A DNA stretch of 40,086 nucleotides, taken from positions 1 to 40,086 of the IMG/VR virus record IMGVR_UViG_3300027793_000143, one strand, 5' to 3'. The translations under genes and the position numbers were made by a program. Positions 808 through 37,744 of the stretch are shown piece after piece (the first letter of the stretch is position 1; every line of letters begins with the position of its first letter). This DNA comes from a virus. The notes under the pieces are model-generated. The model was not told where the DNA came from. It saw only the letters and a list, made by a program, of their open reading frames with translations, and ran no database searches.

Positions 808-1824
808 ATGAGTAGTGTAACTATCGTGGAGAAGTATCCACAAAACAAAAAATCAAGTATTGCTGTAAGACCTTTTTTTGATGCCAATGTTGATAACATG
901 GGATTGCAAAAATATGGTTTAACTCTCTTTGATGGCGCTGTACATGAAGAACAATTAGCTTGTTTAGAGATTAACGGAATCAAACGTTATCTTACAGGTC
1001 TTAATGAGTTTGCACCTGAGATTAAAGATCTTCCTCTTGATGAACAAGAAGCAAAGGTTAAAGAAATTAGAAAGGTGGTTTGTCATTTAGAGAAAGTGCT
1101 AGCAGCAAATGTTCTTGATCCAGAAGATGTTGACTTTTGGAATAAGGTTAAAATTGCTGGACCTAATAATAGCAATCTTTGGGATAAGATTGTTATTCGT
1201 GTAGGGAATGAACCTCTTCATTTAGAGCCAGAAAAAGATCCTTATGATCTTATTAAGCTTTATGCAATTGAAGCTGGAGGTTTTTCAATGGTTGCTAAAT
1301 CACTAGATGATGCACGCAAGATGGCAGTTCCTCCTAAGTTCTTTTTAGATAAATTAGAAGAAACAGTATCTACAAATACAGAAGTGAAGAAGCTTAGAAA
1401 CAAAGCTCTTTCTGAACTTCAAAAGCTCTTTGACAAGAATACAAATAAGTTGTTTTATGTTGCTAAGTTGTTAGATCCTAATAGCGCGCAATATAAAAAA
1501 TCTACACCTAATGATGTTATTTATGACAATATGGATAAATACATTAATGGTGATCTTTTAGAAAAGAATAAGCGTAAAACAGCTGAAAAGTTTCTTGAAG
1601 TGGTAGGTCTTGATATGGAGTCTCTTAAGATTCGTGCTCTTGTAAAAGATGCGCATTATTATAAGATGATTGCTACAAAAGCTGATGGGTTTATTTATCA
1701 CATGGCTTCTACAACTATGTTAGGACGCACACAATCTGATGTAGTGGAATATCTTAGGAATCCTCTTAATGAAGAGATTCTTGTAGATCTTACAAAGAAA
1801 GTGGAACAATATTGGAATAAATAA
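808..1824 (+). CDS. Unassigned helical virion-associated protein, 338 aa
   Basis: No family recognised. Residues 1-60 look mixed; the region from about residue 75 to the end is mostly alpha-helical and rich in Lys, Glu and Leu, with only a few Cys and no signal or membrane segment. It has its own upstream gap (759-807) and an A-rich leader before the ATG. Lying upstream of the capsid candidate, it could be a scaffold, auxiliary capsid or assembly factor; nothing in the sequence decides between these. Confidence 0.6.
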   Translation: MSSVTIVEKYPQNKKSSIAVRPFFDANVDNMGLQKYGLTLFDGAVHEEQLACLEINGIKRYLTGLNEFAPEIKDLPLDEQEAKVKEIRKVVCHLEKVLAANVLDPEDVDFWNKVKIAGPNNSNLWDKIVIRVGNEPLHLEPEKDPYDLIKLYAIEAGGFSMVAKSLDDARKMAVPPKFFLDKLEETVSTNTEVKKLRNKALSELQKLFDKNTNKLFYVAKLLDPNSAQYKKSTPNDVIYDNMDKYINGDLLEKNKRKTAEKFLEVVGLDMESLKIRALVKDAHYYKMIATKADGFIYHMASTTMLGRTQSDVVEYLRNPLNEEILVDLTKKVEQYWNK

Positions 1825-3253: not shown

Positions 3254-3458
3254 GAATCCTGAAGGTGGTTTGAACGCTAAAGGAAGAGCTTCTTACAATA
3301 AAGCAACTGGTGGTAATCTTAAACCACCACAACCACAAGGTGGTTCTCGTAAAAAGTCTTTTTGTGCTAGATCAGAAGGTCAAATGAAAATGTGGCCTAA
3401 AGCTGCAAAAGATCCAAATAGTAGATTAAGATTAGCAAGAAAAAAATGGAAATGCTAA
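3216..3458 (+). CDS. DUF6321-like small phage protein, 80 aa
   Basis: The sequence KSPAWQRKEGKNPEGGLNAK followed by GRASYNKATGG, then KSFCARSEGQM and a final LRLARKKWKC matches the conserved pattern of a short phage protein family I know as DUF6321, found in many marine and Bacteroidota phages. About the usual length for that family. The two end-region Cys (in SFCAR and the terminal KC) are typical. Function of the family is unknown; it is basic and may be carried in the particle. It starts inside the previous gene and its end overlaps the next. Confidence 0.75.
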   Translation: MAKSPAWQRKEGKNPEGGLNAKGRASYNKATGGNLKPPQPQGGSRKKSFCARSEGQMKMWPKAAKDPNSRLRLARKKWKC

Positions 3459-3883
3459 TAGTTAAAGCTTGTACTAAATGCAAAGTTGTTAAACCTGAAG
3501 ATGCTCAACACTTTAGAGTTAATAAAAATATGAACTCAGGTTTAGATAGTTGGTGTAGAGATTGCGCAAAAGAGTATAGAAATAATAGAAGAAAAAAGGT
3601 TCCTCCAAAAAGTTGGAATATACCTGATAGTGAAATAGAAAGATTTATTGATGCTAATGAAGAATTTGAATGTATAATATGTGGAGAACCTGGTCAAGCT
3701 ATTGATCATGATCATAAAACAGGCAGAATAAGAGGTAAACTTTGTCAAAATTGTAATCTTGGTTTAGGACATTTTAAAGATAATCCTGAATTACTTGAAC
3801 TTGCTGCTTTATATTTAAGAGGTGAATGTAGTTGTGGAGAATGTGAAGTAAAATGGGGTGGCTTAATTTTAGAAAATGAATAA
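3446..3883 (+). CDS. Recombination endonuclease VII-type HNH nuclease, 145 aa
   Basis: Matches the T4 endonuclease VII family, which resolves branched DNA before packaging. The zinc Cys pairs are C76/C79 and C100/C103; the catalytic segment is AIDHDHKTGRIRGKLC with D87, H88, D89, H90, followed by N104 in CQNCN. An N-terminal CxxC...CxxC zinc ribbon (C9, C12, C37, C40) precedes it, as in many phage HNH proteins. After residue 125 there are extra Cys (GECSCGEC) not needed for the fold. It overlaps both neighbours by a few bases. It may clear branches during DNA packaging; a free-standing homing nuclease is the alternative. Confidence 0.85.
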   Translation: MEMLIVKACTKCKVVKPEDAQHFRVNKNMNSGLDSWCRDCAKEYRNNRRKKVPPKSWNIPDSEIERFIDANEEFECIICGEPGQAIDHDHKTGRIRGKLCQNCNLGLGHFKDNPELLELAALYLRGECSCGECEVKWGGLILENE

Positions 3884-4577
3884 TAATCTTTTACAAATAA
3901 AAATCAAACAGAGGCTAAATAAATTAGCTTCATTTGATTATGATAATATAGAATGTTGGCAGATTCAAGAAGCTTTCAATAAAGCTCAATTAGAATGGGT
4001 GCGTAGACAGATTTATGGTATAAATACCAGAAAAGAAGGATCTGAAGAATCTACAGGATTAGTGGATGATTTACAAGTTCTTTTAAAAGGGCAAAAAATT
4101 TTTCCAGTAGATAAAAAGTATTTTTACGAAGGGGAACTTCCAGAAGATTATCTATATTACGTGCGTGTAGATGCATTTGCTATAAGTGAATGTTGCAAAG
4201 AAAAACGCAGGATGGTAATATATCAAACAGAAGAAGCTAATATGGGGATTCTTCTTACTAGTGATACAAAAGGTCCTAGTTTTGATTGGGGAGAAACATT
4301 ATCTACACTTGTAGGAAACACTGTAAGAGTGTATACTAATGATGAGTTTGATATAACAGATCTTACGCTCACCTATTTTAGAAAACCTGTTGAAGTTCTT
4401 TTTAAAGATTGTATAAATCCAAGTACTGGATTAATAACTCTTACTGATCAAGAATGTGAGTTAAAAGATGATGTTGTAGAAGTAATTGTAGATCAAGCTG
4501 TTACAATTCTTGCTGGTGATATAGAATCTATTACTCAGTTTCAAAGAGAACAACAAGCAGTACAAACAAATAGTTAA
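3876..4577 (+). CDS. Conserved phage structural protein, connector-like, 233 aa
   Basis: The N-terminal part (IKQRLNKLASFDYDNIECWQ then EAFNKAQLEWVRRQ) is a pattern I recall from uncharacterised head-tail proteins of large phages. Residues 1-75 are helical; the middle (about 80-190) is beta-rich and the C-terminus is again helical, an arrangement common in adaptor or ring proteins. No enzyme motif. Starts 8 bases inside the nuclease gene and is followed by ferritin after two bases. A role at the head-tail junction is inferred. Confidence 0.6.
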   Translation: MNNNLLQIKIKQRLNKLASFDYDNIECWQIQEAFNKAQLEWVRRQIYGINTRKEGSEESTGLVDDLQVLLKGQKIFPVDKKYFYEGELPEDYLYYVRVDAFAISECCKEKRRMVIYQTEEANMGILLTSDTKGPSFDWGETLSTLVGNTVRVYTNDEFDITDLTLTYFRKPVEVLFKDCINPSTGLITLTDQECELKDDVVEVIVDQAVTILAGDIESITQFQREQQAVQTNS

Positions 4578-4579
4578 CA

Positions 4580-5173
4580 ATGCAAAAAATAGCTCGCCCT
4601 ACAATTTTTAGTACAAAAGGATCTGCAACAGCAGAACCTATTAAAACAGGTATTAAAACTGCACCTATTAAAGGAAAAAATCCTTTAATTGATGATTCTT
4701 GTATTAGTTTTCTTAATTATCGCGTACAACAAGAAGATCAATCTTCTCGTATTTATTTAGCAATGTCTCTTTGGTTAGATAATGCTGGCTATGTAAATGC
4801 AGCCAAACTTTGGAAAAAGTATTCAGATGAAGAAAGAGGACATGCTGACATTGCTCGTGAGTATCTTTTAAACATGGGAGTTCAACCTGCAACAGCTTCT
4901 CTTGAACAACCTTCTGAAACATTTGGTGGTCTTCCTGATATTATTAGACAATCTTTTGATCATGAGATAGAAATCACTAATCAATGTAGTGAGTTAGCCA
5001 ATCATGCTCTTAAAGATGGTTCCCATATGTTATATGAGCTTGCTCTTCACTATCTTAGAGAACAAAATGAGGAGCATGGTAAAATGCAAAACTGGATAGA
5101 TCAGCTTAATGCATTTGGAGAAGATAAGATAGCAATGCGTCTTCTTGACCATGAAATAAAAGATTATTTGTAG
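4580..5173 (+). CDS. Ferritin (non-haem, FtnA-like) with extra N-terminus, 197 aa
   Basis: A four-helix ferritin that would oxidise Fe(II) and store iron as a 24-subunit cage. Aligned by eye with E. coli FtnA, all ferroxidase ligands are present: E52, E85 and H88 (DEERGH), E129 (DHE), and Q162 and E165 (EQNEE); the helper Tyr is Y59. The ferritin fold starts near residue 42. The first 40 residues are an added Lys/Pro/Thr-rich, probably flexible segment that bacterial ferritins lack. It sits between a structural gene and the major structural gene, with A-rich spacing and no metabolic neighbours. The protein may act on host iron or be packed in the particle; the sequence does not tell which. 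Confidence 0.9.
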   Translation: MQKIARPTIFSTKGSATAEPIKTGIKTAPIKGKNPLIDDSCISFLNYRVQQEDQSSRIYLAMSLWLDNAGYVNAAKLWKKYSDEERGHADIAREYLLNMGVQPATASLEQPSETFGGLPDIIRQSFDHEIEITNQCSELANHALKDGSHMLYELALHYLREQNEEHGKMQNWIDQLNAFGEDKIAMRLLDHEIKDYL

Positions 5174-5242: not shown

Positions 5243-6676
5243 ATGTATTTTAATCACGCGTTTCGAAAATCCTTTCTAGCGAAAGTTATTGAAGCAGGTC
5301 CTGTTCCTGCTACTTCTGGACAATTAGGAATTGTTCCTCCAGGTAGTTATGTTGATCAACTTACTTCTGGATCAACTGCTGATCTTTTACCTGGTCAAAT
5401 TGGTTTGTTTGATGCTCAAAAGTACACAGCATTTAGTGACACTAACAATGGTAAACCTTTTATCCTTGCTCAAGGATCTTATTTTACTAAAGATAAGATT
5501 GGCCCTTACCATGGTGGTTATCAAGAGTCTGTAAAATCTAAAGTGATCAACCCTAAGTATATCAATAAGGTGTTTGTCACTTGTTCTACTCCTCCTGTAA
5601 ACCAAGTTAAAGATATTGAGATTGGTAAAATTGAGTGTGGTAAAACCTATCGTCTTCGTATTGATCTGAAAGGTTCTCCTGCACTTCGTTTCTTGTCTCA
5701 CAACATCTATCGTACACTTGATGCGTTTAGTGGATGTTGCACAGATGATTGTACAGCTGTATGTACTGGTGCTATTGTAGATCCTACAATTGTTGCTATT
5801 CAGTGGGCTAAGCAAGCACTTGAAAATCCTATCATCACTAACTTCTTGAAAGTTACAGTTTATGATTGGGATGGTGGTGAAGTAGCTGCTAGTGAAGATT
5901 TTAACACTGTAGGTGAATTTGTTGAAGCTCTTAACGCTTATGTTCCTAACACAGAAGAAGATTTTAACGATTGCGACATCAAAGCTAAAGTGCGTTTTGA
6001 AGTGGCATATCTTGAAACTAAATTCGGATATTGTACCTTCACTCCTACTGATTTCTATGAACTTCAACCTTTGCAGCTTTATGCTTCTGTAGTTGATGAG
6101 TCTGGAGATCCTTGTAATGTACAATGCGTTAGCATCACTGGTACTTGGAACAATGGTGTATACACTCCTGATGTTCAAGAACCTGTTCAAGCTCAAGGTG
6201 TTGGTGAAACAGTTCTTCGTAACTTGATTCTTGATGGTCGCTATCGTCAAGAGGCTTATCCTGATAGTTCTCGTGTAGATCATTTGAGGATGAGAGAGAT
6301 TGAAGCAAACCCTGTTCTTGAATCTGTTGATCGTAATAGCTTTTACAATAGTATTAACATTCTTCATAGTGTTCCTCGCTTTAACAATCCTACAGGAACA
6401 TTTGACAATGATCAATATTTGTTGACTATTTATGTTGAAGAAGCTGCAACAGCTACTACACTAATTAATCAACTTGAAGATATCATTGATACTTGTTGTA
6501 CAAATCTTGAAATTGAATACTATTGTGCTGGTAGTGAAAGTGCACCTGCAGTTCCTGCTGGTCCTCTTGGAGATGGTGCATATCCTAATTATGGCAATTG
6601 TGCTTGTGCTTTAGCAGTAGCTCCTGCTGTTCCAGCATCTCCTGCTGTAGAAACAACAACTCAAGCTCAAGGATAA
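5243..6676 (+). CDS. Major virion structural protein (capsid candidate), 477 aa
   Basis: Best candidate for the major capsid protein. It has its own promoter-like leader and a terminator right after, typical of a very highly expressed gene, and its length fits crAss-like capsid proteins. Codon use is more uniform than in neighbours, with many Phe TTC and Asn AAC codons, as in strongly expressed genes. The N-terminus MYFNHAFRKSFLAKVIEAGP and the segments TKDKIGPYHGGYQESVKSK and CGKTYRLRIDLKGSPALRF are conserved features I recall from large Bacteroidota phage proteins of unstated role. The last 50 residues are Ala/Pro-rich with paired Cys and probably flexible. A major tail or tube protein is the alternative. 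Confidence 0.6.
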   Translation: MYFNHAFRKSFLAKVIEAGPVPATSGQLGIVPPGSYVDQLTSGSTADLLPGQIGLFDAQKYTAFSDTNNGKPFILAQGSYFTKDKIGPYHGGYQESVKSKVINPKYINKVFVTCSTPPVNQVKDIEIGKIECGKTYRLRIDLKGSPALRFLSHNIYRTLDAFSGCCTDDCTAVCTGAIVDPTIVAIQWAKQALENPIITNFLKVTVYDWDGGEVAASEDFNTVGEFVEALNAYVPNTEEDFNDCDIKAKVRFEVAYLETKFGYCTFTPTDFYELQPLQLYASVVDESGDPCNVQCVSITGTWNNGVYTPDVQEPVQAQGVGETVLRNLILDGRYRQEAYPDSSRVDHLRMREIEANPVLESVDRNSFYNSINILHSVPRFNNPTGTFDNDQYLLTIYVEEAATATTLINQLEDIIDTCCTNLEIEYYCAGSESAPAVPAGPLGDGAYPNYGNCACALAVAPAVPASPAVETTTQAQG

Positions 6677-11022: not shown

Positions 11023-11047
11023 TAAATACATTAAAGAATAAAACACA

Positions 11048-11722: not shown

Positions 11723-11733
11723 TATTATATAAA

Positions 11734-21131: not shown

Positions 21132-21806
21132 ATGGCTAAAGTAACAATAGGAGATGTATGCTCCAGAATTCGTACTCAAGTAAAAGCAGTTAGACAAGAT
21201 GCCTTGCTAACTGATCGTGTTATTTATAGTTTTGTTCTTAAGCATGCTAAATGGTTAATGAAGCGTGAAGATTCTAAAAGTAAACTTCTTTCTTTTTCTG
21301 CTGTTATTCAAACACTTGATTTTGTTGAGCTTATAGAAGTTGATAAAGTGGAAGCTCAATGTACAGGTATTACTTCTAATTGCACAATTAAAAGAACAAA
21401 AGAAAAACTTCCTGTTTTTCTTCAGGGATATTGGGGGCCACTTATTAGAAGTGTTAGTTCAATAGATGGATCAGAACGTCTTCAACCTATTCTTCCTTCT
21501 ACATACGTTTATAGTTCTAAATCTAAGAATGCTAAGTATAATAAGACTAAGTATTTTTGGTACATGAATGATTATTTATATTTTCCTAATCTTGATTGGG
21601 ATGCTGTTATGATAGAAGGAATATTTGAAGATGATATTAGTCAATTTACATGTAAAGATGATTTTTGCATGCAAAAACAAGATATGAGTTTTAATGTACC
21701 TGATTATTTATGGGGTGAGATTGAATCTCAAGTATTTAAAGATTTAGGAACAATGCTTCAAATTCCTGCTGATACTGATAACGATAAACAAAGCTTAACT
21801 CGCTAA
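21132..21806 (+). CDS. Probable tail ring/adaptor protein, 224 aa
   Basis: Starts MAKVTIGDVCSRIRTQVKAV. The first 60 residues are helices (a typical adaptor helical bundle), then a beta-rich insert with GPLIRSVSSIDGSERLQP, and a final helix pair after residue 180. Cys residues occur in pairs (CTGITSNC, CKDDFC). Position just before another ring-like gene and the muzzle-type gene, as in crAss-like tail modules, supports a connector role. Confidence 0.6.
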   Translation: MAKVTIGDVCSRIRTQVKAVRQDALLTDRVIYSFVLKHAKWLMKREDSKSKLLSFSAVIQTLDFVELIEVDKVEAQCTGITSNCTIKRTKEKLPVFLQGYWGPLIRSVSSIDGSERLQPILPSTYVYSSKSKNAKYNKTKYFWYMNDYLYFPNLDWDAVMIEGIFEDDISQFTCKDDFCMQKQDMSFNVPDYLWGEIESQVFKDLGTMLQIPADTDNDKQSLTR

Positions 21807-21811
21807 TATCT

Positions 21812-22669
21812 ATGAAGACAGAATTAAAATATCGCACGTTTGATCAGCTTCTTGCAGAGGTGATTACAGATTTTACAATGTTTAATACAGAAGGTATGAT
21901 TGAGCCAGGACAATTAATTAAGGTGGCTCAAAGGGTAAGTTATGATTTAGGACTTAGAATTCATGGTACAAAAGAGAAGGTGTTAGAGATTGAAAGTAAG
22001 AAGATGAAACTTCCTGATGATTTTTATGTTCTCAATTATGCTAAACTTTGTGGAGAGTATACGCTTAGAGATCCAGTATTACATGGTAGACATACTGAAA
22101 ATGTAATAATGGATAGTTGTCCTAAATGTGGATGTAATACAGGATGTGAATGTGAAGCAACATATGTACAAGAATGTCAGAATGGTGAGAAGATTTATGT
22201 ACAAGTGATAGAAAAACGTAAGCAAGAAGTTAGAACATACAAGCAATTTGTAGATATTAAGATTGTTGCAACTACTGGTAGAACAGATGCTTTAGATAAT
22301 AGCTTTCCTACAGGATATATTAAAAATGGATTTATTTACACAAATCTTGATAAAGGAAATGTTTTTATATCATATCAAGGAGCATTAGAAGATGATCATG
22401 GAAACTTATTAGTTTTGGATCATCCTGTTATAAATGAATACTATGAGTATGCTCTAAAACAACGTATTCTTGAAAATTTATATATTAATGGTGAAGATGT
22501 TGTTCAGAGAATGCAGTTAATTGAGCAACGTATGAGACCAGCTAGAAATAATGCTCTTACTATTGTTAACACGCCTAATTTTGAAGAGATGCAACAGTTG
22601 TGGGAAACTAATAGAAAAGCACAATATTATAAGTACTACGATATGTTTAAATCATACGGAGGATTATAG
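21812..22669 (+). CDS. Probable tail ring/adaptor protein with zinc knuckle, 285 aa
   Basis: Helical N-terminus (FDQLLAEVITDFTMFNTEGM, with KVAQRVSYDLGLRI), a beta central part, and a long C-terminal helical bundle (YYEYALKQRILENLYINGED). This helix-sandwich-helix plan is that of gp4-like connector proteins, which form a 12-fold ring under the portal. An inserted CPKCGCNTGCEC near residue 105 likely binds zinc. Best supported of the connector genes. Confidence 0.65.
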   Translation: MKTELKYRTFDQLLAEVITDFTMFNTEGMIEPGQLIKVAQRVSYDLGLRIHGTKEKVLEIESKKMKLPDDFYVLNYAKLCGEYTLRDPVLHGRHTENVIMDSCPKCGCNTGCECEATYVQECQNGEKIYVQVIEKRKQEVRTYKQFVDIKIVATTGRTDALDNSFPTGYIKNGFIYTNLDKGNVFISYQGALEDDHGNLLVLDHPVINEYYEYALKQRILENLYINGEDVVQRMQLIEQRMRPARNNALTIVNTPNFEEMQQLWETNRKAQYYKYYDMFKSYGGL

Positions 22670-22671
22670 TT

Positions 22672-23031
22672 ATGAAATATACACTAAAAATTAAGCTACC
22701 AACATATAATTGCGAGCTTCAATTTTATGTTTTAGATCAGTTAAACGCTGAAATAAATAAAGTGTATAAAAAATATAAAATGGATGAAGTATTTGAAGAT
22801 AGTGCTGAGGGAGTTTTATTTACACCAGACATTGACAAATACTTTCTTTTTATAGATGTAAAATATCTTTCTCATAATACAATTGCTCATGAAGTGTTTC
22901 ATGCTGTAATGAAAATTACCGAGGATAGAGATATAAAAGATGAAGAAGCTCAAGCATGGTTAGTTGGGCATATTACAGGAGATGTTTATAAATTTTTGAA
23001 GAAAAAAGCAATAGAAGTAAATAATGGCTAA
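22672..23031 (+). CDS. Small zincin-type metallopeptidase, 119 aa
   Basis: Contains AHEVFHAV with H73, E74 and H77 as an HExxH zinc site, and an acidic stretch DEEAQAWLVGH at 90-100 that could give the third ligand. Small for a peptidase, with a beta-rich N-terminal part (residues 1-70) and the active helix near the centre. Overlaps the muzzle-type gene by 8 bases, so the two are probably made together; it may mature a tail protein. Confidence 0.7.
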   Translation: MKYTLKIKLPTYNCELQFYVLDQLNAEINKVYKKYKMDEVFEDSAEGVLFTPDIDKYFLFIDVKYLSHNTIAHEVFHAVMKITEDRDIKDEEAQAWLVGHITGDVYKFLKKKAIEVNNG

Positions 23032-26000
23032 ACAAGAACAAGGTGGTAGCAATCCTTTAACTAGTACAAATTCCTTTACAAAAGGAATGGTTAAAGATTA
23101 CAATGAATCTTTTGTAGGAGAAGGATTGTACACACATGCGCGTAATGCTGTTAATAATTCTTATGAAGGTAATGTAGGAGTTATTGGTAACGAACCTTCT
23201 AATTTATTTTGTGTTCAACTTCCATATACTTATATTGGGTCTATTCATATAGAAGGAGATAGATGGGTTGTATTTACAACTAATAATATAAAATCTGAAA
23301 TAGGAATATTTGATGAATCAGAATGTTCTTATAGAAAAATAATAAATAGTGATTGTCTTAATTTTAAAACAACAAATCTTATAACAGGTGTTTTTAGAGA
23401 TAGATTTGATTGTGATAAAATGATTTATTGGGATGATGGGTTGAATCCCACTCGTAGTTTAAATATTGATGATATTCCTTTTAAATATACAGAAAAGGTA
23501 GTAAATGATTGTATAGTTAAAGAATTTACAACTGAGTTAGATTGTGAAGCTATAAGAATTGTTTCTTTAATTAAATATCCTTGTATTGATATTAAAGCTG
23601 GTAATATAGCAGGTACACTACCAAATGGATCTTACCAAGCTTGTATAGCGTATACAATAAATCAAGTGAAGGTAACTGACTACATTGGTTTATCTGAGGT
23701 GCAGGGATTATTTACTCATGAAAATGTAAGTTCATCTCTTATTCTTGAAATAAAAGAAATAGATCAATCATTTGACGAATTTGAACTTGTTATTGTAGCT
23801 AATATAAATCAACAATCCGTTGCTAAAAGAATAGGGTATTATTCTACATCTCAAGGTAGAATATATGTAGATAGATGGGACCCTGAATACATTACAGTTC
23901 CAATTTCAGATGTTGTATTTAGATCTGAACCTGTTGAGAAAACAGATGCAATGTTTTCTGTTAATAACTATTTATTGCGTGTAGGTACATATAGTAAGTT
24001 TAAGTTTAATTATCAACCTTTAGCAAATGAAATTAAAACTAGTTGGGTGGCTGTTGAATATCCAGCTTCTTATTATATAAAAGGTGGCAACAATACTGGT
24101 TATTTAAGAGATGAACAATATTCTTTTTTTATAAGATGGATTTATAATACAGGAGAACGCTCTGAGTCATATCATATTCCAGGTAGAGAATCAGTATCAT
24201 CTGATTTATCATTTGTTATAAACACTGATGTTTTTGAAACAGCAAGTGGTGTTAAAATGAAAAAATGGCAAGTATATAATACAGGAAGTATTGATTCAAC
24301 AACAGCTTATAAGCTAAGTGATGGAGGTAAAGTGGTTGCATCAGGTAGAATGGGATATTGGGAATCTACAGAAAGATACCCTGCTGATAGACCAGATATA
24401 TGGGGTGAGTTATGTGGTAAACCAATTAGACATCATAAATTTCCTGATATAACAGTAAACCCATTATTAAATCATTTTGGTAATTCTGGTAATACAATAA
24501 CAATTTTAGGTGTTCAATTTAATAATATACAGCATCCTTTAGACGAAAACGGTAATCCAATTGAATCAATTGTTGGTTATGAAATTCTTAGAGGTTCAAG
24601 AGAAGGAAATAAATCAATTATTTCTAAAGGTATTTTAAATAATATGAGGGAATATAAAGTTGTTGAAAGTCCTACTATTAAAGGTCTTTATCAAAACTAT
24701 CCCTATAACGATCTTCGTCCAGATAGTTATATAACATCTGTTGAGCAAGATGGAAAAAATGGTCCTAAAAATGACAAACCAAATTCTCCTAAATCAACAG
24801 CTTATAGAAAAGATGTATTTTCATTTCATGGTCCAGAAGTTGCATTTTCAAATCCTTTTTTAAATCCTAATGAAATTAAAATATATCAAGAATTATATGG
24901 TGAAGCAAAAGGTAGATTTGAAGTTCCATATCTTCACCCTAAGTTTAAACAAATAACAAATGATCTTGATACTGCTTTAGATATATTTGCATCTGCTGTT
25001 GCAACAATTCAAGCAGTTGCTGCTATTGCAGGTGGATTAACATATCAAATAGGTGGAGATTCACCATTACCTGTGCAAAATATTGGAATTCCATACGTTA
25101 TTGCTGAAGGTGTTTCTGGTGGTATTGCTACAATAGCAACAGCAGGAGCTATAATTGCAAACTCTATATTTGCAGGTGCTTACACTTTATTGTTTGGTGT
25201 AAAAACTTATAAAGAACAATCTTTAGCAATGGCATTAGCGTTAATGCCATTTAGACAATTTGCAGCTCAATATAATTCTCACGGTTTTTATTCTGAATCG
25301 CAAACGAATATTCAAGGAAATATGCGTAGAGAAATTATTGATGCAAGATATATTGATTCTTCTATTCAACAATTTACAGCACAATATCAAGTTAATAATA
25401 TAAATAGAAGTAGATTTGTTGTATTAGAAGTTGGAAATACAATAGATAATCCTTCTTCAGTTGTAGACAATAGTAGATTTACAATTGGCGACATAAACAC
25501 AGATTACAATAAATCTGTTACATCTAATATTTGCTCTTATTACGGTGCTCTTAAACTTTCAATTCCAAGTCAATATGGACAATTAGAATCAGTTGAGCAA
25601 TTACCTATTTCTACATGTATTGAACCCACAATTGCTTCTACAACATCTCGATTAACAAGTAATGTATTATTTGGAGGTGATACCTATATAAATAGATTTA
25701 CCGAAAAAAATACAATGTTTTTCTTTTCAACATGGATGCAAGGTGAACCAGATGGTTCTGAATTTAACTACACATTGTATCCAGCAATTCCTTATCCTCG
25801 TTATTGGATTAATAATCAAAAATATATTGGATTATTTGCTGAAAAAGCAAGTGAGCTTAGAAGTCTTGATAAAGTTGAAAATGCAAATTTCTTTTATTTA
25901 AATAAAGGTTATTTTTATCTTTTTAATTCAGGAGTTAGAGATTTTTTTGTAGAATCAGAAATTAATCTTGCATATAGAGATTGGGAAGATGATATTAATG

Positions 26001-27571
26001 CTAGACATTATGATATTAATTCATTTACTGATTTATCAGGAATGTTTAGGAGTGATATAATTGTAGCTGGTAACTATTATAAATATGATTATTCATTAAG
26101 TGTATCTAAACTATTTAATAATAATGTTAGTTGGGCTTCTTTATTACCAAGAGATTATGATCCAATTGTATCTTCTACATGTTTTTCATATCAGCCTAAC
26201 AAAGTGATATACTCACTTCCTCAACAACAAGAATCTAAAAAAGATAATTGGCGTGTTTTTCTAACAAATAATTATAAAGAATTTCCAACACCTGTAACAT
26301 CAATTAAATCTGTAAATAAAACAGGTGCTTTGTTTATGATGAAACAAAGTAGTCCTTTGCAGTTTTTAGGTGTAGAAGAACTAAAATTAGATGCTACAAA
26401 TACAAAGGTGACTATTGGTGATGGAGGATTATTTACAGGAACTCAGCAATTACAAGCGATTGTAAATGCAGATGATTCTTATGAATATGGTTCTTGTCAA
26501 AACAGAAACTCTGCTATAAGTACAAGAAAAGGTGTATTTTGGGTGAGTCAAAATCAAGGTAAAATATTTCAATATATTGGACAGTTAAATGAAATATCTA
26601 ATTCAGGATTGAAGTGGTGGTTTGCAAAATATCTTCCATCAAGACTTGTAGAAAAATTTTCAAATTATAAACTTTTTGATAACCCTATAGAAGGTGTGGG
26701 TGTTCAATGCACATATGATAATGTAAATGAAGTATTTTACATTACAAAAAAAGATTATATACCTATTAGAGATAATATAGTATTAGCTGATGATGGAATA
26801 ACTTTTTTATCTGGTAGAGCTAAAATTAGTTTAAAAGATACTAATTATTTTGAAGATATAAGTTGGACAGCTAGTTATGATACAAAATCACAAACTTGGA
26901 TAAGTTTTCATGATTGGAAACCAACAGCGTTACTTCCAAGTAAGACTCATTTTATGAGTGTTAATACAAATAGTATATGGAAGCATAATGTTCGTTGTGA
27001 TAATTATTGTAATTTTTATAATAAAGATTATCCTTTTGAAATAGAGTTTATTTCATCAACAGGTCAAACAGTGACATCTGTAAGAAATGTTGAATATATG
27101 CTTGAGGTGTATAATTACTACAATGACTGTAGAGATAGATTTCATGTACTTGATGAAAACTTTGATCAAGCTATAATATATAACTCAGAGCAAATTTCTG
27201 GATTGCTTAATTTGACAATTAAACCAAAGAACAATCCATTAGCTCTTATATCTCAACCAACGATTAATTTTGACTCTATAGATATTTATTTTTCTAAAGA
27301 GGAACAAAAATATAGATTTAATCAGTTTTGGGACATTACTAAAAATAGAGGTGAGTTTAGTTCAACAGGAGTTGTTCCGATGTTTACTACAAAAGGAAAT
27401 GGATATGAGTATCCTATTAATCAAGATTATGTAAACTATGGTAAAAATCCTCTTGAGCGTAAAAAGTTTAGACATAATATAAATCGTGTATTTTTAAGAA
27501 AAACAGCTAGTGGTAAAAATAAAATGCTATTTAAGCTTTCTAATGAAAAACTTCTAATTAGCAATCGATGA
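23024..27571 (+). CDS. Large tail muzzle/stabilisation-type protein, 1515 aa
   Basis: The N-terminal segments NSFTKGMVKDYNESFVGEG, NAVNNSYEGNVGVIGNEPSN and, near residue 140, YWDDGLNPTRSLNIDDIPFK match the pattern I recall for the large beta-propeller-type tail protein of crAss-like phages (muzzle) that plugs the tail end. Most of the chain is beta-rich with many Tyr, Asn and Ser. Two strongly hydrophobic, Ala/Gly-rich segments (about residues 650-672 and 690-722) could insert in a membrane and are a less usual feature. Overlaps the zincin and the next gene by a few bases. Confidence 0.75.
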   Translation: MAKQEQGGSNPLTSTNSFTKGMVKDYNESFVGEGLYTHARNAVNNSYEGNVGVIGNEPSNLFCVQLPYTYIGSIHIEGDRWVVFTTNNIKSEIGIFDESECSYRKIINSDCLNFKTTNLITGVFRDRFDCDKMIYWDDGLNPTRSLNIDDIPFKYTEKVVNDCIVKEFTTELDCEAIRIVSLIKYPCIDIKAGNIAGTLPNGSYQACIAYTINQVKVTDYIGLSEVQGLFTHENVSSSLILEIKEIDQSFDEFELVIVANINQQSVAKRIGYYSTSQGRIYVDRWDPEYITVPISDVVFRSEPVEKTDAMFSVNNYLLRVGTYSKFKFNYQPLANEIKTSWVAVEYPASYYIKGGNNTGYLRDEQYSFFIRWIYNTGERSESYHIPGRESVSSDLSFVINTDVFETASGVKMKKWQVYNTGSIDSTTAYKLSDGGKVVASGRMGYWESTERYPADRPDIWGELCGKPIRHHKFPDITVNPLLNHFGNSGNTITILGVQFNNIQHPLDENGNPIESIVGYEILRGSREGNKSIISKGILNNMREYKVVESPTIKGLYQNYPYNDLRPDSYITSVEQDGKNGPKNDKPNSPKSTAYRKDVFSFHGPEVAFSNPFLNPNEIKIYQELYGEAKGRFEVPYLHPKFKQITNDLDTALDIFASAVATIQAVAAIAGGLTYQIGGDSPLPVQNIGIPYVIAEGVSGGIATIATAGAIIANSIFAGAYTLLFGVKTYKEQSLAMALALMPFRQFAAQYNSHGFYSESQTNIQGNMRREIIDARYIDSSIQQFTAQYQVNNINRSRFVVLEVGNTIDNPSSVVDNSRFTIGDINTDYNKSVTSNICSYYGALKLSIPSQYGQLESVEQLPISTCIEPTIASTTSRLTSNVLFGGDTYINRFTEKNTMFFFSTWMQGEPDGSEFNYTLYPAIPYPRYWINNQKYIGLFAEKASELRSLDKVENANFFYLNKGYFYLFNSGVRDFFVESEINLAYRDWEDDINARHYDINSFTDLSGMFRSDIIVAGNYYKYDYSLSVSKLFNNNVSWASLLPRDYDPIVSSTCFSYQPNKVIYSLPQQQESKKDNWRVFLTNNYKEFPTPVTSIKSVNKTGALFMMKQSSPLQFLGVEELKLDATNTKVTIGDGGLFTGTQQLQAIVNADDSYEYGSCQNRNSAISTRKGVFWVSQNQGKIFQYIGQLNEISNSGLKWWFAKYLPSRLVEKFSNYKLFDNPIEGVGVQCTYDNVNEVFYITKKDYIPIRDNIVLADDGITFLSGRAKISLKDTNYFEDISWTASYDTKSQTWISFHDWKPTALLPSKTHFMSVNTNSIWKHNVRCDNYCNFYNKDYPFEIEFISSTGQTVTSVRNVEYMLEVYNYYNDCRDRFHVLDENFDQAIIYNSEQISGLLNLTIKPKNNPLALISQPTINFDSIDIYFSKEEQKYRFNQFWDITKNRGEFSSTGVVPMFTTKGNGYEYPINQDYVNYGKNPLERKKFRHNINRVFLRKTASGKNKMLFKLSNEKLLISNR

Positions 27572-30500
27572 GTTTTAATAGAAAATTATTAAGTCAAATG
27601 ATAGCTGAGTCAAAACAAAAAAAGACTCAACCAAAACCTAAAGATAGGATAGTTGATCCTATGGGTCAATGGGCTCATCCTGGACAAGTTACACGTATTC
27701 CTTCTAATAGAATAACAATGCAAGGAGTACCCTATCCTGTGTTAGGTAGAGGTAGTGATGGTAGTGAACGAATGATGTATCCAGAAGAAGAACATACTTT
27801 TCCTGATGCAGAGTATGTAGATGAATATCCTTTAACAAAAGCTCAAAATGGTATTCAAATGCTAGATCTTCCTGATGTTCATCTAAATCTTCCAAAATAT
27901 AGTAGACAAGAAGATAAAAAAGTTGGTGTTAATCCATACATGTTTGGTTTTAATCCTCAACGTGGTGTAAACATTCACGGTATTGGAGCACAAGGTTATG
28001 TAAATCTTTTTAATAGTAAAAAAAATAAATTAGGACTAACAGGAAATGTTAATAGTGTATCTGTTGGTTATCCAGGTGGTGTAGAATTATTTGGTAAACC
28101 GCAATTTTTTCCAGAATTAAGATTTACACATAGATTTGAAAATGGTGGACCAATAGTAGTTCCTTATAGTAAAGAATATACAGATAAAGAATACCAAGAT
28201 TATAACAAATTTTATGAAGATTTTAATAAACCTCCTTATTTAAGAAAAGATGATGGGTTTGATAAATATTATCATAAAAAAATAAAAAATCTTCCAGGAA
28301 TGCCTATTTATTCTTCTGGTTGGGAAAGAAAAAATATAGCTGATGGTTACGTGCAACATTATGATAGACAACCTAAACCAAAAGTTGGTTTTGTAGACAG
28401 AAAAATGGATAATGAGTTAATAGGTTATGATCCAAATGATAAATATCCTAGTCAAACTGCAGGACCATATAAAATGATAAAGGCATTTGCTAATTATAAA
28501 CCATCTAATTCTTCTAATATTTTAGGACTTAAGAATGGTGGGTTTGCAACTACCGTTCAAACAACAACACCTCTTGGTTCCACTGAGCCTATCGTTGATG
28601 TTGATCCAATACGATATGAAAATAGAGAAGGAATAGGTGAGGTGGGGATTCTTCCAAATATAGTTATAGCTCCACATTTAGATGATCAAGGAAAAAGATT
28701 TTATGAAAAGATATTAGACAGACCTTCTAAACCTGTAGAAAGATATGAACCATCTAATGCTGTAAAGTATAATAAAGGAGCACTTTCTGCAGCTGCGCTT
28801 TCTACAATGGCAGCTCCTGAAATTCAATATCTTATTCAATTAGCAGGTGCAACAGGAGATTTTTACACTGGAACTAGATATGCTCTTGATAAAAATTGGA
28901 GTAAGGCTGGTGAAGATTATACACAAGGTCTTTTAGGACTTATCCCTTATTCTAAAGCATTGAAAGGAATGAAAGGAGATGAGTATTACACACTTTTACA
29001 AAAATTATATAATGCTACTATTGGTGGTTTAAAATTTGGAAGTGATGTAAAAACTATGGATGAAGGTGTTGATAAAAAACAATATGGTGGAGAAAGTTAT
29101 TTACAAAAAGCTCAAAATGGTGGAGATATATCTATACCAAATCTAGAAGAAGGTAATTGGTTAGATAGATATGATGAAGGTGGATTAACTACAGATGAAA
29201 CTACATTTCCTATACTTACACGAGAAGAACATGAAGCTTTATACAATTCACAAATTGCACTTAACAATTTTTATGAAAATGAAGTAAGACAAGGAAGATT
29301 AAAACGCACTAGTACTAAAACTTTTAATCAACCATCTATTTCAAATCGTGAGTATAATAAACTAAAAGAAGGAAATTTAAGTTTTTATAAACATCCCCCA
29401 GGTGCATTTTACGATGCTCTTTATAAAAAAATATATAATTTATCACCTTCACAAATTAGAGATTTAGAGCGTAAATCTCTTGAACAAATACAAAAATCAA
29501 ATAGTAATAATCAACTTTATTATAGAGATATTGTTACGCCAGCTCAAAATTTAGTTTCACCATTTGCACTTGTTGATAAAAGAGTAAAGCCACAAAGAGT
29601 AATTCGATATGAACCTGTATCAGGAAATTTATCAGGTTATCCAGGTGGAAATGTTGAAGTTTTTGATTATGATCCTTTATATATAAAACCACCTCATTTA
29701 AGAAGTAAAAAAGAAAATCTTGAATGGGAAAAATTATATGGCGATAAACCAGAAAACAAAGTTATTCCTCCTAGCGTTTCTTCTTTACCACCACAATTAA
29801 AAATGGTTCGTAATACAATTGGTATAGAACCTTTGAGTGTTGGAACTCCATCAATAAATAGACAACCTAGTATACAACCTAATCAATCAGGAGATTATGT
29901 TTTAAGATTTAGTGAATTAAATTCTGAAGGACAAAATCAACCAAGAGAAGTTTTTTTTAAGACTAGAAAAGAGGCAGATGATATGATGGATTTTCTACAA
30001 AAAGAAAATCAAAGACGTTATGAAACAGGAACATATTATGGTAATTTAACAACACAAGGTAATTACAAACGTGGTGGTCAGTTTAAACAATTTCAACCTG
30101 GTGGATTTGTAACAACAGACACTACAACTTTACCAAAAGAAACTAGATATGTACATAATCCATCTGTTGGTGGTAAAACAGATTATGCTATACGTAGAAC
30201 AGTAACTCCATATAAAACAGAGGATGAAATAAGAAAGTTTACAGAAATGCCAACGTCAGGTGAAGATGTAGATTTTCTTTATTGGTATAGAAATGCATCT
30301 AACAAAAAAGATGCTATGTCTGTTCCATTTAAAGGTGATAAACATTGGAATATTGATAGAGGGATTATAGATGTTGAATTTGGAAAGAATTATCCAAATT
30401 TAAATCAAAGTGGAACAACAGTTGAACAAAATAGAAATAATGTTTTAGCTGATATGTACAAATATTACATGTTACAATATCCTGATAATAAAGATAAAGC

Positions 30501-32208
30501 ATGGAGAGAAGCTAAAAGATTTGTTAGAAAAGAAATTGATCCAAGAATAAATAATGAATATTTTAGAGATGTAATAATAAATAAAACAGCTCCTAATACA
30601 GGTACCCTTACTGGTTTTGGAAATGAAAATCCTTTTAAAAGATTGCAAGATTTTAATCAAATGTTTGTTGATAATCCTGAACTAGCATTTGCATATCATC
30701 GTAATTATAATCCTAGTGAATGGACAATGGATAGAATGAAAGGTATAGCAAAAGATTATTTAAGAGATTATAAAGGTTTATCTAGAAGAGATACTAGAAG
30801 ACAACTTAGAGATTGGGAAAATGAACTAAAAGGTAGTGTTACAGTAAAAGTAGGACCTAGCAAACCTCTTGGAAAATCGGTAGATGATGTAGTTCTTACT
30901 GATGATATTATTAGAGCATCTAGAGAATCTGAGGATCTTAATTATGGACCAAATTTTGAACAATTATATAAAACACCAAGAGCAAATCAAAGGATATTGT
31001 CTAAAGCTGATAGAATGGTAGAGTGGCGTGGTTTAGATAATCTTCCCCATAGAAGATTATTAAGAGGAAATGAGGCAGATGATTTTATGAAATATCTATC
31101 TGAAAATAAATTATACACAGGAACGAGTATTTCAAATACAGGTATATTAAATGAAGAAGATAGAAAAGAATTTAAAGCAGGTGGACAATTACAACAATTT
31201 GCACCAGGTGGATTTTTAACTACAGATGAAACAACAAAATATCCTCCTCTTCAATCTGATGTAGATATTTTAAATAAAGCAAGAAAAGAACTTTTAGATT
31301 GGTATACAGCACGTGTAAACCATTCTGATCCAAGAATTAGCAATGAAGCTAAACAAGTATTAGAAAATTTTAGTAAACTTCCATCTGATGTTTCTAAAGG
31401 TATTGAGTATAAAGGAGTTCATTATTTAATTCCACAAGGTCTTTTAGGACAATACATGCCTTATGATGAAACAATAGAAATAGCTAACCCATATCTTTCA
31501 ATAGAAGAACAATTAAAAAAACCAGGATTTGGCTATATAAATAAAAATCCAGAATTAAGAGATCGTTATATAAAAGCTCATCAGCTTTCAAGAACAGAAG
31601 AACCTATAAAACATGAGGGCAAACATAGAGATCTTCATAAAACTGTTGAACCAATTCTAGATCAATATAGTGATCAAATATATTCTGGATTTGCTGGACC
31701 TGAAGTTTATGCACAACATCTTTATGAAAGAATTGGTAAACCAGATTTATCAAAAGAAGCTGCTGGTAAATGGGCTCAAGCTAATTTTGATAGAGATGCT
31801 GGTTATGCTTATGATTGGATGACTGGAACAGGATTTCCTAATTTTAGAGTGAATAAAAAAGGAAATGTAAAAAATATGAAAAATTCAGAACTTTACAGAG
31901 CCTTGATGGAACTTAGAACAGAATACGGAATTGATCCTGCAGCAAACACTACATCCGAAGATTTTAAAAATATTTACGAAAAAGCTAAAAAATCTTATGA
32001 GGAAGCTATTCAAAATAAAGATTCAGAGAAGAGATTAAGATATGAACATTTTCTTGATTTATTTAATATTCATGGAAATGATTTTGAGAAATTAAACAAT
32101 TTAAATAATTTATTAGTAGGAGTGGAGGGTTCTTCTTTACCTATTGCAAATAAAGGGTTTAATGTTAAAAATACTGGACAAACTAATTGGCTAGAAAACT
32201 ACAACTAA
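27568..32208 (+). CDS. Giant multidomain virion protein 1 (cargo/ejection candidate), 1546 aa
   Basis: A chain of Lys/Gln/Tyr-rich segments divided by recurring GG linkers: GGFATT (residue 324), GGLTTDETT (538), GGQFKQFQPGGFVTTD (836) and GGQLQQFAPGGFLTTD (1205). Residues about 404-465 are hydrophobic (SAAALSTMAAPEIQYLIQLA), a feature of ejected phage proteins that enter membranes. A HEGKH at 1349-1353 in KHEGKHRDLH, with E1379 after it, could be a zinc protease site. Position after the muzzle gene matches the cargo proteins of crAss-like phages. Overlaps its upstream neighbour by 4 bases. Exact functions unknown. Confidence 0.65.
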   Translation: MSFNRKLLSQMIAESKQKKTQPKPKDRIVDPMGQWAHPGQVTRIPSNRITMQGVPYPVLGRGSDGSERMMYPEEEHTFPDAEYVDEYPLTKAQNGIQMLDLPDVHLNLPKYSRQEDKKVGVNPYMFGFNPQRGVNIHGIGAQGYVNLFNSKKNKLGLTGNVNSVSVGYPGGVELFGKPQFFPELRFTHRFENGGPIVVPYSKEYTDKEYQDYNKFYEDFNKPPYLRKDDGFDKYYHKKIKNLPGMPIYSSGWERKNIADGYVQHYDRQPKPKVGFVDRKMDNELIGYDPNDKYPSQTAGPYKMIKAFANYKPSNSSNILGLKNGGFATTVQTTTPLGSTEPIVDVDPIRYENREGIGEVGILPNIVIAPHLDDQGKRFYEKILDRPSKPVERYEPSNAVKYNKGALSAAALSTMAAPEIQYLIQLAGATGDFYTGTRYALDKNWSKAGEDYTQGLLGLIPYSKALKGMKGDEYYTLLQKLYNATIGGLKFGSDVKTMDEGVDKKQYGGESYLQKAQNGGDISIPNLEEGNWLDRYDEGGLTTDETTFPILTREEHEALYNSQIALNNFYENEVRQGRLKRTSTKTFNQPSISNREYNKLKEGNLSFYKHPPGAFYDALYKKIYNLSPSQIRDLERKSLEQIQKSNSNNQLYYRDIVTPAQNLVSPFALVDKRVKPQRVIRYEPVSGNLSGYPGGNVEVFDYDPLYIKPPHLRSKKENLEWEKLYGDKPENKVIPPSVSSLPPQLKMVRNTIGIEPLSVGTPSINRQPSIQPNQSGDYVLRFSELNSEGQNQPREVFFKTRKEADDMMDFLQKENQRRYETGTYYGNLTTQGNYKRGGQFKQFQPGGFVTTDTTTLPKETRYVHNPSVGGKTDYAIRRTVTPYKTEDEIRKFTEMPTSGEDVDFLYWYRNASNKKDAMSVPFKGDKHWNIDRGIIDVEFGKNYPNLNQSGTTVEQNRNNVLADMYKYYMLQYPDNKDKAWREAKRFVRKEIDPRINNEYFRDVIINKTAPNTGTLTGFGNENPFKRLQDFNQMFVDNPELAFAYHRNYNPSEWTMDRMKGIAKDYLRDYKGLSRRDTRRQLRDWENELKGSVTVKVGPSKPLGKSVDDVVLTDDIIRASRESEDLNYGPNFEQLYKTPRANQRILSKADRMVEWRGLDNLPHRRLLRGNEADDFMKYLSENKLYTGTSISNTGILNEEDRKEFKAGGQLQQFAPGGFLTTDETTKYPPLQSDVDILNKARKELLDWYTARVNHSDPRISNEAKQVLENFSKLPSDVSKGIEYKGVHYLIPQGLLGQYMPYDETIEIANPYLSIEEQLKKPGFGYINKNPELRDRYIKAHQLSRTEEPIKHEGKHRDLHKTVEPILDQYSDQIYSGFAGPEVYAQHLYERIGKPDLSKEAAGKWAQANFDRDAGYAYDWMTGTGFPNFRVNKKGNVKNMKNSELYRALMELRTEYGIDPAANTTSEDFKNIYEKAKKSYEEAIQNKDSEKRLRYEHFLDLFNIHGNDFEKLNNLNNLLVGVEGSSLPIANKGFNVKNTGQTNWLENYN
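30073..30129 (+). repeat. GG linker module, copy A
   Basis: Codes for GGQFKQFQPGGFVTTDTTT. Closely related copies lie at 31180-31236 (GGQLQQFAPGGFLTTDETT) and 32892-32924 (GGALTQFQPGG, next gene); short forms at 28537 and 29179. The module separates domains of giant proteins. Confidence 0.7.
31180..31236 (+). repeat. GG linker module, copy B
   Basis: Codes for GGQLQQFAPGGFLTTDETT, 13 of 19 residues identical to copy A at 30073-30129, in the same frame and protein. The copies bracket a 350-residue domain block, suggesting that blocks were joined by recombination at the linker. Confidence 0.7.
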
Positions 32209-32213
32209 CTAAT

Positions 32214-35200
32214 ATGAAGAAAGAATTTTTAAAAATGGCTGGTGTAGAAAATGAAAAAGATTTCTACAAATTGTTTCCAACAGAACAAGCATTCTTTGGC
32301 ATGTTTCCTGAAGCTAAAAAACTAGTACAAAAAAGGTATGGTGGTTTAGTAAAAGCAGTTGGTGGGTTTAATGTTACAAGTGAAAGTACAAGACCAGCTG
32401 CAACATGTGGCAAAGGAGGTTGTAACAATCCAGATAATTTTGTTGATAATAGGATGATGAATATTATTAACAAACAAAAAGAAGCAAAACCTACAACTCC
32501 TTGGCAAAATATAACATCAAAAGTAGGACTTGAGAATGAGAATGAGATGTTAAAAAAAGAATGGGAGCAAACAAGTAAAAATTATCCTGGTTTAACATAT
32601 GATGAATTTTTTGCTGCTAATCAACTAGAAAGAAATAATAGATTAAATCAATCTCAATACAATAACTATTTTGATGAACAAGGTAATCCAATAGAAGGGA
32701 AAGATCCTCGTGCATATTCTTCACAACCTTATATTCCTTGGGTGAGATCTACGTTTAATAATCCCACTCCAAGTCGTGAAACTATAATGAGATATTTTCA
32801 AGACTACAAACTAAATAAAAATGATATAGAAAATTTAGTTAATGAAAGATATACTCCTAAAAATCAAATTGCACCTTCATATTTTAGAGCAGGTGGTGCA
32901 TTAACTCAATTTCAACCAGGTGGTAGTAACGCTTCGCTTCCTGGTTATCTTCAAGTTAGAGATAAACAATATGGTAGTCAAGGGGATATAGTAAACAGAG
33001 GAATGAGTGTTGGAACAAAAGCTGCAATTCAACCACAAATTAAAGAGGAACAAGTTGTTAAACAAATAATGAAAAAAACAGGAGCAAGTAGGCCTGTTGC
33101 TCAACAAATACGTCAACAACAAACACAGAAAAAATCAAATGTAACAGTTGGTCAAGATAATAGAACAGATTATGAAAGAAAGGTTGCGCAGCAAAAAGTA
33201 GATGATGTTAATAAATATAGAACAGAAGTACTAGGTATTCCTGAAGGAACTACACAAAGAGATTTAGATGAAGCAAATAAGTATAAAGAAAGATTAGGTA
33301 GAATATTAAATGTTGGTTTAACAGCAGCACCTTTGTTAGAAGGTGCACTTTCTTTAGGAGCTAGAGCAATACCAATGGCAGGTAGAACTGCTAGTAGACT
33401 TGTAGCACCAACTTCTACATCAACAAGACAAGCTACAATACAATCATTTAATCCTAAAACTAAAATGTATGAAACTAGACTTGTTGATATACCAGAACAG
33501 ATTATACCAGGAAGATCGTTTGAAGATGTGCAACATAAAATACCAAGTTTATTAAAGGATTTAAAAATTGGTCCTGTAGAACATTGGTTTAGAAAAAATT
33601 TTAAAGGAATTGGTAAATCAATTCCTACGAATAATGACCAAGGATTAGTTATAGATCCAACAGGTAAGATATGGGATAAAAATACAAGATATTGGTTAAA
33701 TAGACTATATGGACATACTCCAGATCCTTTAGAGCTTATTAAACCTTATCAAGGTCAATATAGTAGAAATTTTGGAACTTTAATTTCTGAAAGTCCTAAA
33801 CCTAATCTGACATCGGGTAGTTTTAATTTTGTAGGTAAAAGTGGGATTCAAGGTCAACCTTTACAATCTGGATTATTAAATACAAGGGATCTTGGACAAA
33901 TGATTCGTAACCCAAAACAATATTTTACTAAACCTGGAGGACCTCAAAAATTTGAAGTAAACTTTGATGAAATTTCTAGAATGAATAGAGGTGAAATAGA
34001 TCCTTTTGGTGAAACAGGAAGATTTTTTACTTTTGGTGAAACACCATCTAGAGTTATTGATTGGGGTAAAGTTGGAGAAACAGCACTTCAATTAGGACTT
34101 GGTACAGGATCAGTAGCTTCAGGAGCATATTTAGGAAGTCAAAGAAATAAAAAACAAGATGGTGGTTTAGTAAAAGCACAAGATGGTGCAGAATATACAG
34201 GTTCAAGTATTGTAGACTATTTAGCAACAAAAGGGTATCAAGGATCTAAACCATTTAGAGGACAACTTGCTAAAGAATATGGTGTTGAAGGGTATGATTA
34301 TTCGGCAGCAAAAAACTTAGAGCTTCTTGAAAAACTTAGACAAAATCAAGATATTCTTTTAGCTCATCAACAATCATTTACTCCAGTTAGTGTTGAAACA
34401 ATTGAGCAATTGCATGCAAAAAATAAAGCAGGATTAGATAGACATTCATCTCTTCCTGGAAAAGAAGAAGCTAGAAGTAATTATAATGCTGATAAACTAA
34501 ATGCTCTTTTAGATATTGCTACTATGGACATTAATAAAGGAATGGGGACAATGCCTCAGTTTGGTTTTAATAATGCTTCTCAATATGCAGCAATGAATAA
34601 AAAACCAAGTGTCTCTACTGAAGAATACTCATCTGATCCTACTACTGAAGATTACACTGCAGATCCTGGTGGTTATTATAAAACCATACAAGAAGGTGAA
34701 GAAGCTTTTGTTCTTCCTGAAGTGGTAGTTACATCACCTGTAACTAAAAAACAAATTCAAGAAATTAAAGCTAAAAAAGGAGCAATGGATCAGTTTAATA
34801 AATATTTAGATTATTCTAGAAGTTTGCTTCAAATTCCATTTAGACCTGGTCAACAACCTATTTCACAAAGAAAAGAAGAATATACTGAGTTTGATGTATT
34901 ACCTGAAGAAGGTTTACCTAATAAACAAAATCAAAAAAACAACTTAGGTTTTTTTGATTATTTAAATCTTGGTACTAAAGCTGCTGGACTTTTTTTGGGT
35001 GAATTTTTAGATCCTACTAAAAACATAGAAAGAATAAGCAGCGGTGTTAATGATATATTTCAACTCGGTCAAAATTATTTTGCAAGAAAAAATGCACTTA
35101 AAGAAGGTGATGATCTTAATAAATCAAAGTCAACAATTTCAATTCCAAAAGTAGAAAAACCAGTTGTTAGTCAATCACCATTAGTACTTGAAAGTACACC

Positions 35201-37724: not shown

Positions 37725-37744
37725 AATATATTAAAACAAACAAT

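Follow-up and report, generated by a model that had tools for sequence, protein, structure and literature searches.

A ferritin with a lineage-specific N-terminal tag in the virion gene module of environmental crAss-like phages

The ferritin gene and its neighbours

The stretch of DNA analysed here (hereafter the window; 40,086 nucleotides of IMG/VR record IMGVR_UViG_3300027793_000143) belongs to a crAss-like phage, the large genes having matches among the proteins of csAssE-Sib, Cellulophaga phage phi17:2, Flavobacterium phages and Leptolyngbya phage Lbo-JY46. The genes and gene parts on which the analysis bears are the following:

808..1824, + strand: conserved gene between the MCP and ring genes, 338 aa, in the same module in relatives
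3876..4577, + strand: crAss-type tail-barrel ring protein ("R1"), upstream neighbour of the ferritin (family profile)
4580..5173, + strand: ferritin (FtnA-like) with N-terminal head, 197 aa (Pfam, PDB, AlphaFold2, Foldseek, ligands)
4580..4618, + strand: tag, first 13 codons (MQKIARPTIFSTK), common to the Dps-like proteins of the same slot in related phages
4619..4696, + strand: variable disordered linker, residues 14-39
4697..5170, + strand: ferritin core, helices A-E, with the six ferroxidase ligands
5243..6676, + strand: auxiliary-capsid-like protein (g477/AUX), 477 aa, downstream neighbour (fold match)
21132..22669, + strand: two more virion structural genes (phrog_9863, phrog_34036), csAssE-Sib homologues of which are annotated as ring proteins
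23024..27571, + strand: muzzle-like protein (homologue of the csAssE-Sib "muzzle"; phrog_37948, virion structural)
27568..40084, + strand: three giant genes where crAss phages have their cargo / RNA-polymerase genes (judged by position alone)

The product of 4580-5173 is a real ferritin with an intact ferroxidase fold. The open reading frame matches Pfam Ferritin (PF00210, E=6e-22), the bacterial ferritins of the PDB (E=5e-19, the best being V. cholerae ferritin) and the NCBIfam non-heme ferritin model (E=2e-16, under that model's equivalog cut-off). Its AlphaFold2 monomer (mean pLDDT 83) has five helices (residues 39-68, 72-98, 118-146, 149-179 and 183-196) and was matched by Foldseek to V. 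cholerae and E. coli FtnA with a TM of 0.94 and an rmsd of 1.2 Å, the four-helix bundle and the short fifth helix of FtnA both being present. Residues E52, E85, H88, E129, Q162 and E165, together with Y59, are invariant in 75/75 distinct phage ferritins. An earlier sequence-only reading of the window, which had named the same six ligands and called the protein a working-type ferritin, was thus right, and the modelled protein would be expected to form a 24-subunit cage. Compared with bacterial FtnA (PF00210; E. coli, V. cholerae), with which it has the fold, five helices, six ligands and tyrosine in common, the phage protein adds a head of up to ~50 residues that includes a lineage-specific tag, and its gene is located in a virion module.

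The ferritin ATG lies 2 nt after the stop codon of the upstream gene, whose family profile matches the phicrAss001 ring proteins gp34 (3e-10) and gp35. On the other side, a low-confidence model of the 477-aa protein (pLDDT 63) gave a clear fold match to a 333-residue icosahedral capsid chain of phicrAss001 (3.7e-10). Since this chain has the length of the phicrAss001 auxiliary capsid protein gp36, which spans residues 1-333 (PMC10172136), we assigned the 477-aa protein to AUX; it resembles gp36 and is placed by fold alone, from that low-confidence model. PDB searches returned no match for the MCP or 477-aa families (profile search) or for the muzzle (single-sequence search). As judged from relatives, the MCP (phrog_11589, "major head protein") and portal (phrog_6547) genes lie upstream, past the left end of the window. 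Thus the sequence-only reading had correctly put the ferritin within a virion gene block, flanked as it is by a ring protein upstream and an auxiliary-capsid-like protein downstream, but its statement that the gene stands just before the major structural gene does not hold, as the 477-aa protein is auxiliary-capsid-like by fold and the MCP gene lies upstream, outside the window.

Several other genes of the window may be mentioned in passing. Two small Lys-rich proteins (1842-2666) have KKYxxGG-like starts and LKKGGSVSK(S)KKK ends, and a small protein of contig L002 starts similarly. Immediately before the ring gene, and in some relatives only, is an Endonuclease VII-like gene (3446-3883, PF02945), possibly a homing endonuclease beside the swapped slot. 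Downstream of AUX come a papain-like C1 peptidase (7556-8434; PF00112, phrog_16701), related genes being found here in many relatives, and a predicted lipoprotein (8446-9849) in which five thrombospondin type-3 repeats precede a reprolysin-like zinc metalloprotease domain, an unusual gene for a phage structural block. Four successive genes (10261-13052; 253, 224, 243 and 196 aa), amid genes with long Thr tracts, resemble diverged Cys-rich paralogues and are possible appendage proteins, and two glycosyltransferase-like genes, judged by eye, lie within the appendage gene region (15404-16938).

Occupancy of the ring-AUX slot in related phages

A close relative of the ferritin was found in 30 viral contigs, and a profile search with an alignment as query returned 80 (all relatives considered here are uncultivated contigs), which excludes a lone acquisition in one contig. 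The gene order in most of them is portal, g415, MCP, g338, ring, ferritin, AUX. Distant phages have the ferritin between portal and g415 (L020, L148, L169, L191, L192), upstream of terminase/portal (L141, L178), or beside the muzzle and giant cargo-like genes (L025, L029, L030). Homologues without the N-terminal extension and in a metabolic gene block, which the sequence-only reading had regarded as evidence against its own proposal, come down to a single distant case, L028, in which a nearly headless ferritin lies amid genes of non-structural look.

Many near relatives, when sought through the MCP instead of the ferritin, lack the ferritin and encode a protein of 136-172 residues exactly in its place. 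These proteins match Pfam DUF5856 (PF19174, 26/26 aligned), all five of those tried match phrog_858 ("starvation-inducible transcriptional regulator"), and their profile finds Dps-family structures, e.g., H. pylori NapA. Residues H54, H66, D81 and E85, which correspond to Dps H51, H63, D78 and E82, are invariant (77/77), and the position of Dps D67 is not kept, being mostly N or G. The alternative occupant of the slot is thus a phage Dps-like protein of the DUF5856/phrog_858 family. Members of this clade differ from those of phages phiR1-37, DSL-LC05, P19250A and ctfjg026 by an added N-terminal tag. One of these distant relatives, g280 of Yersinia phage phiR1-37, bears the note "phage structural protein"; two later papers make no mention of g280.

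The ring-X-AUX slot was found to be filled in 115/115 distinct MCP lineages (ferritin 47, Dps-like 66, both 2, empty 0); the sample of 68 reached through the MCP alone had 66 Dps-like genes, two ferritins and no empty slot. A search of related genomes at this place, as the sequence-only reading had proposed, therefore does bring the ferritin back (47/115 alone, 2 with a Dps-like gene), but most relatives carry the Dps-like gene. Searches of whole records showed the two genes to be mostly mutually exclusive. Such a full slot is not the pattern of an auxiliary metabolic gene, i.e., patchy and outside the structural core, L028 being the exception. Profile searches, one of them without a positive control, found neither gene in the characterised phages Fpv1, phi17:2, csAssE-Sib and Lbo-JY46, all outside the clade, and in Fpv1 the ring gene directly abuts the AUX-like gene. 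A 5.5-kb contig binned as a Tissierellales MAG (L201) encodes a ferritin with 61% identity to those of the phages, and is probably a mis-binned phage contig.

A short tag common to ferritin and Dps-like heads

The head of the window ferritin comprises residues 1-39, with a net charge of +4, and is a low-confidence part of the AlphaFold2 model (pLDDT <50 for residues 11-22). A wrong start codon is excluded, as no ATG, GTG or TTG occurs between codon 1 and the core. The nearest cellular ferritins, those of Flavobacteriia (44-49% identity to the window ferritin), begin ~8 residues ahead of the core (MKTKSEFLSEAMVKLLNYR) and have no phage head. Hence the added N-terminus described from the sequence is real, and because the nearest cellular ferritins start so close to the core, it was acquired in the phages.

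Only about the first 12 residues of the head are common to ferritins and Dps-like proteins. Matching starts are those of the window ferritin (MQKIARPTIFSTKG) and the L087 Dps-like protein (MQKISRTNIFSSSP), of the L180 ferritin (MESKPRTLKRPEIV) and the L109 Dps-like protein (MESKPRMLKRPEAV) and, within the single genome L006, of ferritin (MQKIVRPTVFNTKS) and Dps-like protein (MQKIPRPSVLSAKA); in this last tandem pair the second gene, away from the ring gene, is tagged too. Beyond these residues the head is of variable length and almost missing in L028 and L030, and the ferritins of distant phages have different heads or, as in these two, almost none. A targeting role for the extra N-terminus, suggested by the sequence-only reading, is therefore strengthened, with the first ~12 residues making up a shared lineage-specific tag and the rest of the head being variable.

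Training one motif model on the heads of ferritins gave a significant yet weak result (AUC 0.78-0.85), since the tag has two main types, KIxR and LKR, and the model was replaced by a comparison within matched phage clades. On the MCP tree, parsimony counts 14 switches between ferritin and Dps, versus about 36 with shuffled labels, and the type of tag tracks the phage lineage rather than the enzyme. For phages with 90-95% MCP identity, ferritin pairs scored 31.7 on average over residues 2-13, Dps pairs 33.9 and mixed pairs 30.6 (13-14 in a shuffled-head control), and over residues 14-25 the scores were 21.6, 20.2 and 9.6, respectively, so that the similarity between ferritin and Dps heads ends sharply near residue (codon) 13. 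Head similarity of mixed pairs followed MCP identity (r=0.61, reached in 0/2000 permutations, which correct for relatedness only in part), versus r=-0.07 for the next 12 residues.

At the nucleotide level, all mixed pairs of the 90-95% MCP bin were pooled, none being chosen by score. Their heads have a pS of 0.49 and a pN of 0.29, and their residues 14-25 a pS of 0.58 and a pN of 0.64. As synonymous sites in the heads are strongly diverged and pN is lower, the amino acids of the tag are being kept. The common 5' end could partly stem from inheritance through recombination. The tag is moderately constrained and, relative to the core, weakly conserved, with a dN/dS of 0.44 for ferritin heads and 0.21 for Dps heads versus 0.08-0.10 for the cores.

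The tag is restricted to the occupants of the slot as far as compared: no other tagged open reading frame was found when ORF starts were checked in three contigs of 100-121 kb, no likeness to it in the N-termini of the other appendage-region proteins of the window, and none in cellular ferritins or in the Dps-like proteins of four outside phages (phiR1-37, DSL-LC05, P19250A and ctfjg026). Two apparent resemblances were set aside. A KPxIFS motif in g415, the gene between portal and MCP, resembles IFS-type tags, but is kept also beside LKR-type tags and is not claimed; in L025, cargo genes nearby start with "MKKLKR", which was put down to the composition of AT-rich genes.

A second lineage has both genes between portal and MCP, and most of its ferritins and Dps-like proteins share a different N-terminus, MALDIN. 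In L148, L169-L170 and L191, a ferritin and a Dps-like gene stand in tandem in this portal-MCP interval, mostly with MALDIN-like starts.

A candidate virion-borne iron-oxidising cage

Taken together, these observations suggest that an environmental crAss-like clade has a core virion-module gene of which the window gene is the ferritin variant, and that this variant probably encodes a tagged iron-oxidising cage carried with the virion. The best reading of the sequences is that the tag is a phage-specific N-terminal address by which the cage would most likely be localised to the assembling virion: it is lineage-specific, is kept through swaps, occurs on both cages and on no other ORF checked, and belongs to a gene of the virion block, whose obligatory neighbours make the virion its likely destination. 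Marks of a virion cargo are found in this location and in a common N-terminal signal on more than one cargo (mostly in different genomes). We consider packaging or virion attachment, taken together, to be likely, and internal packaging with a protective role to be probable, though less so. It is tempting to go one step further and to speculate that every virion of the clade packages an iron-oxidising cage through its lineage-specific tag, the enzyme, whether 24-mer ferritin or Dps-type cage, being replaceable and the address kept, as an on-board iron and peroxide defence for the DNA and a phage counterpart of ferritin-loaded encapsulins; to this fuller statement we would give somewhat less than an even chance.

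The mechanism that we propose would run as follows. The cage gene would be made late, together with the ring and capsid proteins, and the core would assemble as a 24-subunit cage. Ferritin N-termini sit on the outer face of the 24-mer, so the disordered heads would be exposed and project outward from the cage surface, where the first ~12 residues may bind a virion or procapsid protein. In this way the particle would take the cage along, inside or on its surface and most likely in the cargo space of the capsid, where the cage could oxidise and sequester Fe(II), consuming O2 or H2O2, beside the packaged DNA. Iron oxidation and peroxide consumption are activities of both enzymes, which points to protection of the DNA from Fenton chemistry, and Fenton damage might thus be limited during packaging and in the free virion. 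A 12-nm ferritin cage fits the cargo space but is too large for the portal when assembled, which makes protection within the particle likelier than the transfer of an intact cage to the next host. The cargo space of phicrAss001, near the portal vertex, is about 1.1x10^7 cubic Angstrom, and its head and tail fibres dock through short N-terminal segments (PMC10172136).

These docking segments also lend some plausibility to a cage anchored on the outside of the particle, at the capsid or collar, in the manner of crAss fibre N-termini (gp21, gp29 and gp22 of phicrAss001 dock by N-terminal segments of 26-58 residues; PMC10172136), where it could serve surface chemistry, display iron to host iron receptors or give protection. 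The auxiliary-capsid-like nature of the downstream gene would fit such an anchor. We nevertheless find it improbable, as the tag is unlike the N-termini of the appendage-region proteins or of other ORFs, and as the classical site of action of Dps-like proteins is next to DNA.

A less remote alternative, still unlikely in our view, is a late function in the host cell, i.e., a cytoplasmic cage that lowers free iron and peroxide during virion production, with the structural block reflecting common late expression and the tag targeting a host or replication component or stabilising the protein. Interchangeable enzymes would suit a soluble activity, and the Dps and Mn-catalase genes of Gratiaviridae and Lactobacillus phages, likewise phage ferritin-superfamily enzymes tied to iron and oxidative stress, are interpreted as host-side stress genes (PMC8008677; PMC6669764). 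However, a single structural slot that is always occupied is unlike a patchy auxiliary gene, the ferritin of other lineages lies again beside portal, terminase or muzzle genes, and a soluble activity needs no lineage-specific tag that survives enzyme swaps. Least probable, by a little, is that the tag is a by-product of recombination without a role at the protein level, either because swaps replace the gene body behind a retained 5' end or because the start is maintained for translational coupling with the ring gene. The 2-nt spacing after the ring gene stop and the sharp head boundary near codon 13 agree with this; yet the heads of mixed pairs keep their amino acids while synonymous sites have strongly diverged, the second gene of the L006 tandem is tagged though it does not adjoin the ring gene, and the second lineage has the same sharing at another locus.

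Encapsulins have an HK97-type shell and a ferritin-superfamily iron enzyme as cargo, which carries a short targeting peptide. The sequence-only reading had drawn this parallel, which fails in detail: the shared peptide is N-terminal here rather than a C-terminal cargo-loading peptide (the C-termini of the ferritin and Dps-like proteins differ), and no encapsulin shell gene was found beside the cargo, whose neighbours are ring and AUX, the MCP matching phrog_11589; the shell would instead be a DNA-filled phage capsid. T4 internal proteins carry a capsid targeting sequence, a short N-terminal signal. Like the docking segments of crAss001 (PMC10172136), it is an N-terminal element by which a protein is brought into or onto a phage particle. 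The cargo here would be a ferroxidase cage, and the likeness proposed is one of role. As for the Gratiaviridae and Lactobacillus phage enzymes, the genes of the latter adjoin DNA-metabolism genes (PMC6669764) whereas the slot seen here is a fixed one among virion genes, in which two enzymes are interchangeable, and the accessible portions of PMC8008677 and PMC6669764 report no tag on their Dps or Mn-catalase. An exact-phrase literature search for phage-encoded ferritin returned no paper, and in literature that excluded most subscription papers no report was found of a phage virion module with a tagged ferritin, or of an exchange between ferritin and Dps in which both bear the same tag. The parts are thus of known families, and the arrangement appears to be new.

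Phage ferritins and Dps have so far been read as optional host-side stress genes, whereas one or the other is present here in every clade member examined. A mutual replacement of ferritin and Dps that conserves the tag predicts metal chemistry inside or on the phage particle, which bears on the Ferrojan horse idea of iron in phage particles and on the survival of the DNA of free virions in the face of oxidants, and the tag, short and natural, may be of use for loading crAss-type capsids with protein cages.

The 37.6-kb phage DSL-LC05 has a Dps-like gene immediately after that of the portal (L198:5007-5369), which suggests that Dps in virion blocks extends past this clade.
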